Program-made: the position numbers and the translations under genes
From: a virus
Reading direction: 5' to 3' (one strand)
Length of the DNA stretch: 34,346 bases
Virus record (IMG/VR): IMGVR_UViG_3300023174_000020
Coordinates: 1 to 34,346 of that record
In this document: positions 5,320-17,025 of the stretch, piece after piece
How positions within the stretch are numbered: position 1 is the first letter of the stretch
Layout: each line of letters starts with the position of its first letter
The notes under the pieces: generated by a model
The model's database searches: none
What the model saw: the letters and a program-made list of their open reading frames with translations, nothing else
Told to the model about the DNA's origin: nothing

Positions 5320-5615
5320 CAGTTGGAAAATACAATATTAGGATTGTCAAAAACGGGGATAAATACGGGTTAGACCATAAGCTTACCTATGATGAAGATA
5401 AGCCTATGGTCGAATTTTATGATTCTAGATTTCCGCATTCTGAATTCGGACAATTCATAACACGTTATTACATAGGCACATTACTATGTTTAGACGGGTA
5501 CTATGGCAGTAATTTAGACAATGGTCTATGCTTAGATGGCGGAAATCGTAATGAATGGAGCGTTTCATCATGTGAAATGCAAGTGGTAAAGGACTATATT
5601 AGCCAGTACATCTAA
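5313..5615 (+). CDS. Early protein, 100 aa, unknown function
   Basis: Last gene of the rightward early operon, with the shared AAAGGCTTTAAA leader. It begins MLTVGKYNIRIVKNGDKYG, a strand-rich, aromatic and acidic protein with LCLDGYYGSNLDNGLCLDGG in the middle. I do not recognise the family. The 16-bp phage motif overlaps its stop codon and a strong terminator follows 24 nt later. Confidence 0.75.
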   Translation: MLTVGKYNIRIVKNGDKYGLDHKLTYDEDKPMVEFYDSRFPHSEFGQFITRYYIGTLLCLDGYYGSNLDNGLCLDGGNRNEWSVSSCEMQVVKDYISQYI

Positions 5616-5936: not shown

Positions 5937-6390
5937 GTATTTGAATTCTCCAATATTCAGCGATTAGTAGGGCTTCAGCCCTATTGATGTCCTTTTTGAG
6001 CTTTAACTTAGCCTTCGGGAATAACTGCCTAGCCTTTTCCAATGCTTCATTTTTGTCAGCAGTTAACCCGAAATAGCCCTTCCATTTTTGAGGACTTACC
6101 AAGTGAAAAGGGTAGTTAGTCAATTCGCAAACTGCACTAATAACACCTACAGCTCTTGCAAAATTCCATGTTGACGATATACCCTGTTTTGGCATAGCGT
6201 GAACCTGTTCCATGCAAATCTGAGCGCCTTCTTTGGGGTCAACAATGGATAGGATTCGACTTTTAAAAACAAGGGCGAGTATGTGTTTGTCTTTGTGTTC
6301 AATCATGAATGATTCAACATAATTCCCATCATGGTCAATTGCCCCAAGTGCGCCACTTACTGAACCAGCGTCTATGCCTATGTAAATCAT
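5908..6390 (-). CDS. RuvC-like Holliday junction resolvase
   Basis: 160 residues with the RuvC/RNase H-like layout. The first strand is IGIDAGSVSG, with catalytic D7. A second acidic residue lies in the CMEQVHAMP motif (E at about 60), followed by QGISSTWNFARAVG, as is typical of phage RuvC proteins. The final helix is NRAEALLIAEY. The last acidic pair is unusual: where bacterial RuvC has D-x-x-D before AL, this has N-R-A-E, with another D two residues before the N. It would cut branched DNA made by the Erf/exonuclease system before packaging. Starts with an ATGA overlap to the upstream gene. Confidence 0.82.
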   Translation of the reverse strand: MIYIGIDAGSVSGALGAIDHDGNYVESFMIEHKDKHILALVFKSRILSIVDPKEGAQICMEQVHAMPKQGISSTWNFARAVGVISAVCELTNYPFHLVSPQKWKGYFGLTADKNEALEKARQLFPKAKLKLKKDINRAEALLIAEYWRIQIHGTTPQNPK

Positions 6391-6662: not shown

Positions 6663-7001
6663 TCATGAGCGCCTCAATGCTTGAAGTTTAGCCCTTATAT
6701 CGTCAGGCATAGGTACTGACATTGCCCTGCTCTTTTCAATTGCTTCTAGGGCTGTTTCTGTGCGTTTAATCTCAGGAACTTCAGCACCATCCCATCTCTG
6801 TTGGTTAAGGTACACCAAGGGCGCAGGGATAAATGCACCATTTAACTTCAGCCATTGTTCTGTTGTTTTTAGCCAATTTATGTGTTTTAGGATTTGTTCG
6901 GCTTGGGTGTCGCAATAAGTCTTGTCCCATACCTGTTTGCATTTAGCCTTTCCACCTTTGCGTGGTGTGCTTGGGTAGGCTTTCCAAAAGTCTTCAAACA
7001 T
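6663..7001 (-). CDS. Replisome organiser / DnaT-like replication protein (C-terminal type)
   Basis: 112 residues from the ATG at 7001 (MFEDFWKAYPSTPRKGGKAK). This start has GGAG six bases upstream and leaves only an 8-nt overlap; two upstream in-frame ATGs lack it. The pattern FWKAYP..RKGGKAKCKQVWDK, then a helix with HINWLK and finally FIPAPLVYLNQQRWDGAEV is typical of the C-terminal domain of phage replication initiators and helicase loaders, which recruit host DnaB. The usual N-terminal winged-helix half is missing, so origin recognition must come from another protein. No phage helicase is visible. Confidence 0.7.
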   Translation of the reverse strand: MFEDFWKAYPSTPRKGGKAKCKQVWDKTYCDTQAEQILKHINWLKTTEQWLKLNGAFIPAPLVYLNQQRWDGAEVPEIKRTETALEAIEKSRAMSVPMPDDIRAKLQALRRS

Positions 7002-7296
7002 CGGTTTCTCCATGAGTTGGTGGGTCAAACAATCCAGTCCATTTTTGTGTTTGTTCTTGCATTAAATCAGGTAAAAGATTAAAAAACACCTTAGTTTGCT
7101 CAGGTGAGAGCATGAATTGAGTTACTCGACCACATTCAAAACAATCCTGTTTTAACACTAAGTATCCGACATCAGATACATAGAATTCTGTAGGATAGCT
7201 GTCGTTTAAGTGCATTGCATTTCCTTTAGACATAGTTTCTCCAAGGGTGGATAGAGTCATTTCTATCCTACCTTCTCCAGACTGATTAGTGTTCAT
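6994..7296 (-). CDS. Hypothetical protein of replication operon, ~100 aa
   Basis: First clear gene downstream of the leftward early promoter. The ATG at 7296 has AGGA 8 nt upstream; in-frame ATGs at residues 13 and 22 also have purine-rich sites, so the start is uncertain. The C-terminal part (GYLVLKQDCFECGRVTQFMLSPEQTKVFFNLLPDL) carries a CxxC pair and an amphipathic helix. No family recognised. Confidence 0.6.
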   Translation of the reverse strand: MNTNQSGEGRIEMTLSTLGETMSKGNAMHLNDSYPTEFYVSDVGYLVLKQDCFECGRVTQFMLSPEQTKVFFNLLPDLMQEQTQKWTGLFDPPTHGETDV

Positions 7297-7530
7297 TTAT
7301 TGAATCCTATTAACATTGAAAAACCAAAAAGCCCCAAGTGCGCTTGACGGATTTGTTCGCTTATACACACAGCCTTGTTTACCACCGATGTACTGTGTGC
7401 TTTACCAGTCGCCAAATCAACGCTGGTCACATTTTGCACAAGGGGTGTACTTGTGTGCGGTGTTTTCTTCCAAGCCATCCATGCAAATGCGCTGCTATCG
7501 TGTGGAGTACGGATGCTGTTGGTAGACAAT
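7297..7530 (-). other. Untranslated or weakly coding stretch of leftward operon leader
   Basis: Between the conditional terminator and the first clear gene. One minus-strand frame is open from 7661 to 7293 and ends in an ATGA overlap with the next gene, but its upstream ATG lies within the -10 box of the promoter and cannot be in the transcript. A shorter start at 7478 (MAWKKTPHTSTP, 61 aa) has no ribosome site. I cannot support a gene; coupling of a short peptide is possible. Confidence 0.4.
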
Positions 7531-7650
7531 AAAAAAAGCCGTTTACAACTGCTCTCTGGTGGTAGTCCTTTGTAAATTATTCCTACGAAATTTACAAAAG
7601 ACAGAAAGCATGTGCAAACGGCCTTAATTTCGTTACCTACCACAGCAACG
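7531..7650 (-). ncRNA. Structured leader RNA / small RNA with conditional terminator
   Basis: Starts about 7 nt after the -10 box at 7657-7662 and ends in seven T after a long stem. Pairing: A (7637-7643, GTGGTAG) with A' (7559-7565, CTACCAC), 7 bp; B (7608-7622) with B' (7538-7552), 15 positions with two mismatches and one wobble, directly before the T-run; C (7589-7598) with C' (7569-7578), 10 bp. The order A-B-C-C'-A'-B' means A/A' and B/B' interleave. That gives either a pseudoknot or an antiterminator/terminator switch. It controls, or is cut off from, the replication operon downstream. Confidence 0.6.
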
Positions 7651-7656
7651 GAGCGA

Positions 7657-7684
7657 ATCATAACAAACTTTTAGTGTTTGTCAA
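7657..7684 (-). promoter_or_regulatory. Strong leftward sigma70-like promoter with operator dyad
   Basis: Minus strand: TTGACA (7684-7679), 16-nt spacer, TATGAT (7662-7657). An inverted repeat ACAAAC-N7-GTTTGT (7663-7681) fills the spacer and includes one AACACTA motif. This is a classic position for repression. The promoter starts inside the 3' end of the ribbon-helix-helix gene. Confidence 0.8.
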
Positions 7685-7844
7685 GATTAATTTTGACTTG
7701 TTGTTGTCTCTCAATTGAGTCGGCTAATAATTGGCGCAACCATTTAGTCCCTCCGAGTCGTTTAAACTCATTCCACTCACTTAAGGTTGCTCTTACGGCA
7801 ATGGTCTTGCCGCTTTTGGTCATTTCAGTTTTAGGTCTTGGCAT
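7671..7844 (-). CDS. Arc-like (ribbon-helix-helix) candidate repressor, 57 aa
   Basis: Begins MPRPKTEMTKSGKTIAV. The segment KTIAVRATLSEWNEFKRLGG (13-32) looks like a DNA-contacting strand and first helix, followed by TKWLRQLLADSIERQQQ (33-49) as helix two, the layout of Arc/MetJ dimers. Its 3' end overlaps the -35 box of the leftward promoter. AACACTA motifs lie around both that promoter and the divergent promoter upstream of its own start (7860-7926), so it plausibly represses both and itself. The function is inferred from fold pattern and position. Confidence 0.7.
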   Translation of the reverse strand: MPRPKTEMTKSGKTIAVRATLSEWNEFKRLGGTKWLRQLLADSIERQQQVKINLDKH

Positions 7845-7859
7845 AGGGAATGGATTGTG

Positions 7860-7926
7860 TAGTGTTTAACAAATACCACAATTAGGGTTTATCCTAGTGT
7901 ACAACACTACAATCTGTGTAACACTA
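7860..7926. promoter_or_regulatory. AACACTA operator cluster and rightward promoter
   Basis: AACACTA occurs at 7860-7866 (minus), 7903-7909 and 7920-7926 (plus), and TAGTGT at 7895-7900 makes a TAGTGT-ACA-ACACTA dyad with the second. A rightward promoter fits here: TTAACA (7866-7871), 18-nt spacer, TATCCT (7890-7895), start near 7902. The motifs overlap the -35 box and the start site, good repression positions. A fourth exact copy is at 7672-7678 in the leftward promoter. Confidence 0.6.
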
Positions 7927-7959
7927 CGAACTCTACCAACCACATTGAAAGGCGTGAAC

Positions 7960-8187
7960 ATGGAACTGGATATAGATTTTTGTGACCTTGAAATAGACAT
8001 CAAGGCTTGGGTCGAATGGGAATATGACCCCGACTACTCTCCCAATGAGGGAGTCTACGATAAATTCATTTGGGTAGCCTACTTACAGGTCGGCAACAAC
8101 CGCATTGACATTACAGACGATCTCTCTGCCAAGGAGTGCAAACAAATTGAAAAACAGATTGAGGAGTCTATCGATGACAGCTTTTAA
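7960..8187 (+). CDS. Hypothetical acidic protein, 75 aa
   Basis: First gene of the second rightward early operon. The start at 7960 (MELDIDFCDLEIDIKAWVEW) has AAAGG 7 nt upstream; an earlier in-frame ATG at 7897 would lie before the predicted transcription start. Strand-rich N-terminus, then DITDDLSAKECKQIEKQIEES as a C-terminal helix. This architecture is common in small phage proteins next to recombination genes; role unknown. Confidence 0.7.
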   Translation: MELDIDFCDLEIDIKAWVEWEYDPDYSPNEGVYDKFIWVAYLQVGNNRIDITDDLSAKECKQIEKQIEESIDDSF

Positions 8188-15342: not shown

Positions 15343-17025
15343 TTAGTCTCTACGAATATTCAAAAGACCTTGTGGAGTTATTCCACCTCCAAGAAGTCCA
15401 CTGTATTCAGAAATACTTTGTCCCATTTTTCTAACAAGTTCTGGTCTTTGTCTCAATGCAACATCTGCGGCACGAATTCCCATAGGTGAGTACAAAGCTG
15501 ATGCTCCTGCAATAGCTGGAATAGAAACTACTGGCTTTGAAAGAGCAGCAATGCCACCCAATGAGCCAATAGCTAATCTGCCTTCAAGTGTTGAATTTGC
15601 ATCTTGACCAATGGTTTTAAGTGCGGCCTCAGACAATTCCTGTCCACGAGCAGTACCACGAGCAAAAGCAGACTTCTGTCTTGTGATGTCAGATTGTTTT
15701 ACAGCAAGACTATATTGCTTTGGCGTAAATACACCATTCTCAGCACCAGTATTTGCTGCTGCCCTTTCCATTATCTTCAAATCGCCATAAGCACTATCTA
15801 CTCTACGCAATTGAGGTGTGTATCGTTGATTCTGTTGATAAAGTTCTGTTTTGAAGTTCTTTAAAACGCCATCTAAAGCATCGCCAATGTTTCTATCAGA
15901 TGCACTTTGACTGTTTTTGTATTTGATGACTTCTTTGGCAAGATCAGATTCAATGCTCTTGTATTCAGCACCTGTCAATGTTTTTCCAGAAAATTTATTT
16001 AAAGCGATATTGTTTAAAACATTAGTTGCTTCTTCTCTTTGTGCAACAGATGGCAAATTAGCCTTATTTAAAGCATTAAGAATTCCACTTGTTGTTTTGA
16101 AGTCAAGATCAAATTTCATCTTTGACAATACTTCATCGTACTTGTTAGATACTTGTTCAGCAGCATAGGCTACAGCATCACGACCAACAACATTCTCAGG
16201 AAGTTTGTCTCCAACTTTATCAAGTGCTTTGTTGATAACTCCTTTATTGAAATCAAACAAAACCTTTTCTCTTGCATTACGAATTTGCCCACCAACTAAA
16301 GGCAAGTTTTGAGCAAAGTCTTCTGCTTTTTTATACATACCTCCAAGGGTCTGTCCAGGAGTTGGAGTAACGCCTAAATCACGCATTGTTTGTTCTGCTT
16401 TAGATGCAAGAGGATTTAAAACTTTACCAGTTGCAGATACTGCCGCTTCTCCTACCTTACCAGCTACAGCACCTAATCCAATTTGAGTTGCCTTTTCTTC
16501 TGCAAATCCAGTTGGCGCATTAACTGGTTGCATAGCGCCTTGTGCTGCACCCGCCGCAGCCGCCTGTGTACCAACACCAGCACCTAATGCACGAGCACCT
16601 TGAGCCGCTCTTACACCAACAGCAAGATTGGCGGGGCTTACAACATTACCAACAAGTCTTCCAACATCAAAACCAGTTTCTCCTTGAGCTTGTCGTTGCT
16701 GTTGATATGCTTGCTCTTCAGCAGCATTCATTGCTCTAACACGTTCTGCCTCAGAACCAAAAAACTGGCTTACTGGATTAGGAGCTAAACCACCAGCAGA
16801 ACTAATAAATTCAAGACCTTTTGGCAATAATTGGGCAGCCCCACTAATAGGCTCTTTAATTCCCATCAATAAACCACTTGAAGGGGCAGATACAGGTTGT
16901 TGTTGAACGCCAAAATCTTCAGGTTTTGCTAAACCAGCTCTGATGGCTTTCTCCATGACAACAGACTTAGGCGTTCCCTCTGGAATACCTTGAATTATTG
17001 TTCCATTTGGAAGTTCAATATCCAT
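15343..17025 (-). CDS. Internal virion / ejection protein
   Basis: 560 residues. The N-terminus MDIELPNGTIIQGIPEGTPK is a short motif shared by many podoviral internal proteins, followed by alanine/glycine-rich helices (for example VGTQAAAAGAAQGAM) and a long helical core. Third of three consecutive large genes whose size, composition and place after the tail adaptor genes match ejection proteins, which leave the capsid ahead of the DNA and form a conduit. Assignment by context and composition. Confidence 0.7.
   Translation of the reverse strand: MDIELPNGTIIQGIPEGTPKSVVMEKAIRAGLAKPEDFGVQQQPVSAPSSGLLMGIKEPISGAAQLLPKGLEFISSAGGLAPNPVSQFFGSEAERVRAMNAAEEQAYQQQRQAQGETGFDVGRLVGNVVSPANLAVGVRAAQGARALGAGVGTQAAAAGAAQGAMQPVNAPTGFAEEKATQIGLGAVAGKVGEAAVSATGKVLNPLASKAEQTMRDLGVTPTPGQTLGGMYKKAEDFAQNLPLVGGQIRNAREKVLFDFNKGVINKALDKVGDKLPENVVGRDAVAYAAEQVSNKYDEVLSKMKFDLDFKTTSGILNALNKANLPSVAQREEATNVLNNIALNKFSGKTLTGAEYKSIESDLAKEVIKYKNSQSASDRNIGDALDGVLKNFKTELYQQNQRYTPQLRRVDSAYGDLKIMERAAANTGAENGVFTPKQYSLAVKQSDITRQKSAFARGTARGQELSEAALKTIGQDANSTLEGRLAIGSLGGIAALSKPVVSIPAIAGASALYSPMGIRAADVALRQRPELVRKMGQSISEYSGLLGGGITPQGLLNIRRD

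Follow-up and report, generated by a model that had tools for sequence, protein, structure and literature searches.

A widespread pseudoknotted phage RNA, possibly one half of a two-RNA switch whose second half is RF02932 in other viruses

A lake virus record of 34,346 bases (here called the window) carries RNA1, a short RNA that is not in Rfam yet is widespread, with at least 118 distinct copies recovered by an IMG/VR pattern scan for its conserved stem and from other loci. Comparison of these copies makes RNA1 almost certainly a real RNA gene with an internal pseudoknot, formed between two strands designated A and A′. Whether RNA1 is also the unrecognized first half of a two-RNA switch, one that ends in the Rfam family RF02932 in other viruses, we consider evenly balanced.

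RNA1 is encoded on the minus strand, as are all of its parts described here. Its promoter, TTGACA-16-TATGAT, spans 7684 to 7657 (−35 hexamer, 7679 to 7684; −10 hexamer, 7657 to 7662), matches the consensus at 11 of 12 positions, and has TG ahead of the −10 box, in agreement with the near-consensus promoter proposed in an earlier, sequence-only reading of the window. The predicted start at 7650 lies seven bases after the promoter end, and the RNA runs for 120 nt from there to 7531, the last T of the T7 run of an intrinsic terminator (7531 to 7537). At the sequence level, the terminated RNA of ∼120 nt in that reading is therefore borne out. The 5′ end forms the hairpin P1 (7631 to 7650; 7650-7645 pair with 7636-7631), whose loop holds A (GTGGTAG, 7637 to 7643). 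The terminator stem P2 (5′ strand, 7608 to 7622; 3′ strand, 7538 to 7552), earlier named B/B′, comprises 15 positions as previously described, made up of 13 pairs and a 2×2 internal loop; both strands are supported by the sequence and by covariation in homologues. P2 encloses the region from 7553 to 7607, which contains the stem P3 (7607-7602 with 7558-7553) and the hairpin P4 (7601-7589 with 7578-7566). P4 is the C/C′ hairpin of the earlier reading, present as claimed and slightly longer than the 10 bp assigned to it. A′ (CTACCAC, 7559 to 7565), which forms the 7 bp with A that were also noted previously, sits between C′ and the stem leading into B′. Since A′ thus lies inside the terminator hairpin, A/A′ and P2 are interleaved yet compatible; the two helices are indeed not simply nested, as had been recognized, but they are not mutually exclusive, as had been supposed, and both fit together as a pseudoknot. 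The predicted fold of 7525 to 7651 is far more stable than that of dinucleotide shuffles (−51.9 versus −25.7 ± 3.2 kcal/mol; z = −8.1), none of 200 of which reached its value. RNA1 in the window scores 85.2 bits with the covariance model R1, which also matches the plus strand weakly at 7514 to 7629 (24.9 bits), because RNA1 and the downstream element Z, described below, make up an imperfect inverted repeat.

The decisive case against chance comes from covariation in relatives. With A located by a blind anchor (GTTGNY, then 7 nt), its exact reverse complement was found within the same RNA's own terminator hairpin in 104 of the 109 copies listed, compared to 31 of 10,942 swaps between copies; the five failures were misplaced anchors (GTTGTTG...). 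These 109 copies contain 26 different A sequences. Where RNAs are nearly identical, both strands are exchanged together; between L082 and L131, for example, the pair changes from GTGAGAA/TTCTCAC to GTAGGAA/TTCCTAC. The covariance check called for in the sequence-only reading therefore shows A/A′ to be compensated. The nested stems behaved likewise: in 43 diverse sequences, P1, P2, and P3 had 99.0% standard pairs (91.1% when shuffled, 35 to 54% when slid) and 85 cells changed on both sides (23.7 expected), and neither the pairing nor the double-change value was reached in any of 500 shuffles. The four core pairs of P1 were standard in 70 of 70 homologues and the first four pairs of P3 in 69 to 70 of 70, the latter with many compensatory types, while the length of P4 differs from phage to phage. 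The IMG/VR pattern for the conserved stem, which matched at least 120 stretches, itself fixes most of P2, so the constancy of the P2 sequence in that set is not evidence of conservation. In the diverged copies L010, L126, L040, and L283, the P2 sequence is greatly altered, in some of them entirely, and the fold is retained. The L040 unit (5467 to 5570, minus strand) has a wholly different P2 and a T7 run followed directly by the ATG of an open reading frame (ORF); no RNA2 lies behind it, and no copy of Z was seen there.

A promoter matching at least 9 of 12 consensus positions precedes 93 of the 109 listed copies, the −10 box ends 6 to 7 nt upstream of P1 in most of the copies displayed, and the T-run is kept in nearly all homologues. 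This constant promoter position, together with the covarying stems, indicates an RNA gene that stands on its own and has definite start and end points. The earlier suggestion of a stable pseudoknotted small RNA is thereby upheld, with promoter, terminator, and covarying pseudoknot in more than 100 phage copies. Among loci fetched via the neighboring RuvC-like gene, most relatives have other sequence in place of this RNA or a much diverged version of it, and 13 loci keep the same RNA design with an altered sequence.

At the gathering score, RNA1 matches no family in Rfam 15, and a search of the whole window at gathering and relaxed thresholds gave chance matches only (microRNA and CRISPR models). 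When phage and plasmid collections were searched at the nucleotide level, a single match came up, MW202484.1, a podovirus from a spring. In this genome (L281), a coding sequence annotated as a hypothetical protein (6023 to 6382) overlaps RNA1 (6000 to 6099) as well as the sequence that follows; this annotation is probably spurious. We also considered RNA1 as a common cellular RNA and rejected this idea, as RNA1 occurred in 1 of 369 sampled bacterial genomes of the class and 1 of 74 of the family, the same betaproteobacterial metagenome-assembled genome (MAG) in both cases. This MAG also contains a copy of RF02932 with a diverged RNA1 ahead of it.

A second structured RNA, RNA2, begins ∼20 nt past the RNA1 terminator on the same strand (7231 to 7512, 3′ boundary approximate) and includes a conserved hairpin at 7280-7231. 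The window thus presents a promoter, a short RNA, an intrinsic terminator, and then a structured RNA in the same orientation, as in known leaders. Simple translation calls an ORF across RNA2 (7293 to 7511, minus strand; RTPHDSS...), for which a protein search found 85 relatives and no Pfam or PHROG family was matched. We judged that it is not a gene: the frame is not kept in relatives, whose lengths differ by single bases, and the stems of the RNA2 5′ domain covary, which together identify the region as RNA2. In 37 diverse sequences, seven pairs of this domain show compensatory changes, including whole exchanges of C-G to G-C and of A-T to G-C, and six of the seven are standard in 37 of 37. 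A copy of A within RNA2 was tried as a further pairing partner and dropped, there being no significant signal. In L187 and L186, a tRNA-like domain (TAGCTCAG...GGTTCGAAGCC, with a long closing stem) has seemingly been inserted into RNA2. In six other loci (L206, L222, L230, L231, L266, and L279), RNA1 is immediately followed by RF02932, "Betaproteobacteria-1" (71 to 96 bits; cutoff, 49.4), a family that is reportedly from Weinberg 2017. RF02932 thus serves as RNA2 in other phages. RNA1 is not part of this family, and the RNA2 of the window is a different class; neither of the two window RNAs reaches the RF02932 gathering score.

Judging from their co-occurrence across loci, RNA1 and RNA2 very probably form a two-RNA module. 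Similarity to RNA2 alone retrieved 78 loci, 6 of which start within RNA2; in 62 of the 72 testable loci, an RNA1 match lay directly upstream, and in the other 10 the RNA1 slot was occupied by a structured RNA of another kind, likewise with a promoter and a terminal T-run. In these ten loci (L122, L123, L124, L136, L137, L139, L148, L149, L150, and L159), the replacement RNA lies in the 200 nt upstream of RNA2 and shows a compensatory change between P1 loop and interior (GTGGC/GCCA versus GTGGT/ACCA in L150). In the reverse test, RF02932 loci were fetched independently by a pattern inside RF02932, and the 54 analyzable loci were searched for a stretch of 6 nt or more, within the first 28 nt of the upstream RNA, that is perfectly complementary to the terminator interior of that RNA. 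A promoter, a T-run, and such an RNA1-like complement were found upstream in 52 of 54 loci; both failures were misplaced starts, the RNA being visible by eye. When reduced to 32 non-redundant loci, 29 had a complement of at least 7 nt, compared to ∼7% of cross-swaps. One match (L294) may stem from terminator pairing rather than from A, and there is one true exception (L315), in which RF02932 lies immediately behind an ORF.

Between the two RNAs lies Z (7510 to 7530, minus strand; ATTGTCTACCAACAGCATCCG), which is complementary to the 5′ end of RNA1 and could form with it an alternative helix, P0, at about −18 kcal/mol. Because Z is complementary to the 5′ hairpin, the RNA1 5′ strand can pair either with itself and A′ or with Z, so that Z competes with P1 and A. 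Mean duplex energies were lower for own than for permuted partners in three non-redundant sets: 55 loci (−13.6 versus −11.2 kcal/mol), 29 loci with Z anchored on RNA2 (−13.0 versus −9.8 kcal/mol), and 45 RF02932 loci (−12.0 versus −9.3 kcal/mol). The corresponding z-scores of −6.9, −6.4, and −7.0 (0 of 5,000 permutations in each) are upper bounds, since the permutations ignore relatedness, but two sets collected with unrelated queries both show the effect. In all three sets, then, the short RNA and the downstream RNA covary in their complementarity, which is imperfect in many phages and does not reach significance when the 12 loci with insertions are taken by themselves (z = −1.5). In such loci (L188, L205, L242, L267, and others), insertions of 73 to 232 nt follow the T-run and Z still adjoins RNA2. 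The insertions between the RNA1 T-run and Z in L188, L205, L163, and L267 measure roughly 90 to 210 nt and have closing helices of their own. Z also holds a degenerate copy of A′. Taken together, these comparisons make a competing pairing between Z and the RNA1 5′ end likely.

Given that Z pairs with the RNA1 5′ end in rivalry with P1 and A, a switch of the seqA/CI type is our leading hypothesis. By analogy, we see an even prospect that the module works as a leader in the manner of P4 seqA/CI, P1 c4, and Salmonella IsrK. Most transcripts would stop at the RNA1 terminator, and a fraction would read through into RNA2. In the terminated RNA, the RNA1 5′ strand would pair with itself and A′; in the read-through RNA, or where RNA2 is supplied in trans, it would pair with Z. 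Through Z, RNA2 would capture newly made RNA1 at its 5′ hairpin, or Z would be captured by RNA1, and this capture would set the amount of transcription entering the downstream genes, here the replication operon. A changing 7-nt contact would give each phage lineage a specificity of its own. We infer expression, termination efficiency, and the direction of control throughout; the module may control replication or exclude co-infecting phages.

Other readings of the locus were weighed against this one. That RNA1 is a stand-alone, protein-binding small RNA, with RNA2 separate and the Z pairing merely aiding folding or processing, would account for its own promoter and terminator, its compact fold with the internal loop in P2, and its presence as a single copy per phage genome in varied genome neighborhoods. 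We think this unlikely, since RNA1 almost always lies directly ahead of an RNA2 and Z covaries with it, and the constancy of P2 is partly imposed by the search pattern. A single noncoding RNA of ∼400 nt, in which P0 closes RNA1 and RNA2 and the terminator-like hairpin is a domain causing little termination, is clearly improbable: a GC-rich stem followed by T5 to T7 is kept in nearly all copies, and A/A′ is retained as an exact match more faithfully than A/Z, even though P0 runs from the predicted first base to the first bases of RNA2, the insertions fall inside the loop it closes, and the read-through RNA with P0 folds at −62.6 kcal/mol.

The interleaved helices, and a terminator that precedes a co-oriented operon, might instead suggest an attenuator of the classical type: A/A′ would oppose the terminator, with some factor deciding read-through into the operon. 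A/A′, however, forms without using the terminator strands, pseudoknot and terminator are conserved jointly, and no antiterminator helix was found: neither A′ (7565-7559) nor Z (7530-7510) overlaps 7622-7608 or 7552-7538. This explanation is accordingly one to which we assign a low probability, and the strict terminator/antiterminator switch of the sequence-only reading, which would need a helix that consumes a terminator strand, is not supported. Covariation of A with A′ would look the same for pairing within or between molecules, and A/A′ might thus join RNA multimers, as in the phi29 packaging RNA; the narrow distance between A′ and the terminator stem (10 to 14 nt across the listed copies) is what a fixed internal geometry would give, and we regard multimers as highly improbable.

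An extension of the two-RNA leader that we find rather doubtful is a phage-specific code, in which A, A′, and their copy in Z would vary in concert as part of a widespread RNA-RNA specificity system among phages. If this were true, a phage would have its leader shut by the matching RNA of a co-infecting phage with the same code, the code would be driven to diversify, and RF02932 would acquire the role of a trans-acting partner.

In the window, RNA1 is flanked on the right by diverging ERF and RecE-like genes and on the left by a replication-initiator fragment and a RuvC-like resolvase. It lies behind a 57-amino-acid ORF (7671 to 7844) that is conserved in relatives and matched no informative Pfam or PHROG family, leaving its earlier designation as a ribbon-helix-helix gene unsupported. 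The initiator homologue (6663 to 7001) covers only profile positions 179 to 258 of 288; its N-terminal part, present in relatives without RNA1, is seemingly missing. Control of replication, expected earlier from the position of the RNA, would fit the window, because the next genes include the initiator fragment and the resolvase. It would not hold in general, since the neighborhood differs between phages and some RNA1 copies sit after a scaffold-like gene. The next gene of at least 80 amino acids is on the strand of RNA1 in 56 of 60 loci, at a median of 434 bases from it. In close relatives without RNA1, the slot between a small regulator gene and the replication initiator is filled by int-alpA RNA (RF02996; L022, 3893 to 3961; L030, 4077 to 4145; L021, 4870 to 4937; L035, 4260 to 4327), whose sequence is unlike RNA1 and where no RNA1-type promoter-terminator unit was recognized; the position therefore looks like a regular place for regulatory RNA. 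Scanning of the window proteins turned up no integrase, which gives no indication of lysogenic immunity, although this is uncertain as the record may be incomplete. A 62-kb phage contig bearing RNA1 and RNA2 (L267) also has six tRNA genes (7027 to 8044).

RNA1 represents a new and common phage RNA family with unusually clean pseudoknot covariation, and it gives RF02932, an orphan family without a role in Rfam, a previously unrecognized upstream partner and a testable mechanism. The phages that carry it are mostly from freshwater, and their hosts are probably betaproteobacteria. P4-like RNA leaders have so far been studied in satellites and prophages; RNA1 suggests that such leaders extend beyond these to this large group.

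The RNA1 module falls outside the C4 and isrK families as modeled in Rfam: the only match of the window to the isrK model (RF01394) is below threshold (16 bits at 15665 to 15762; cutoff, 50), and the C4 model (RF01695) had no match at an E value of ≤1 in G000 or in 11 related phage records. At the IsrK locus of the Salmonella prophage Gifsy-1 (PMC4825925), a short terminated RNA interacts with its own read-through transcript, and a stable processed downstream RNA contains sequence complementary to the short RNA. Common to both loci are a promoter and a short RNA ending at an intrinsic terminator, and also partial read-through with a complementary stable downstream RNA and alternative structures of the short and long forms, which here are predicted from sequence. 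In contrast, the IsrK read-through product is an mRNA (orf45-anrP), whereas RNA2 is a structured noncoding RNA, and the portion of the report at hand describes no pseudoknot of the A/A′ type. The authors of that report link IsrK to P4 seqA; in P4, CI RNA pairs with both seqA and seqC, and this stops the replication genes from being transcribed (PMC4825925; PMC10111431). The c4 RNAs of P1 and P7 arise by processing of a longer transcript, and what distinguishes them is a short specificity loop (PMC5320573). Unlike these systems, the present one has no Rfam C4 match, and no integrase was found in the window. Common to RNA1 and these systems are short contacts by complementarity that join a leader RNA to a second RNA of one transcription unit; in P4 seqA/CI, phage replication genes are under control, and c4 has a variable specificity loop (PMC4825925, PMC10111431, PMC5320573).
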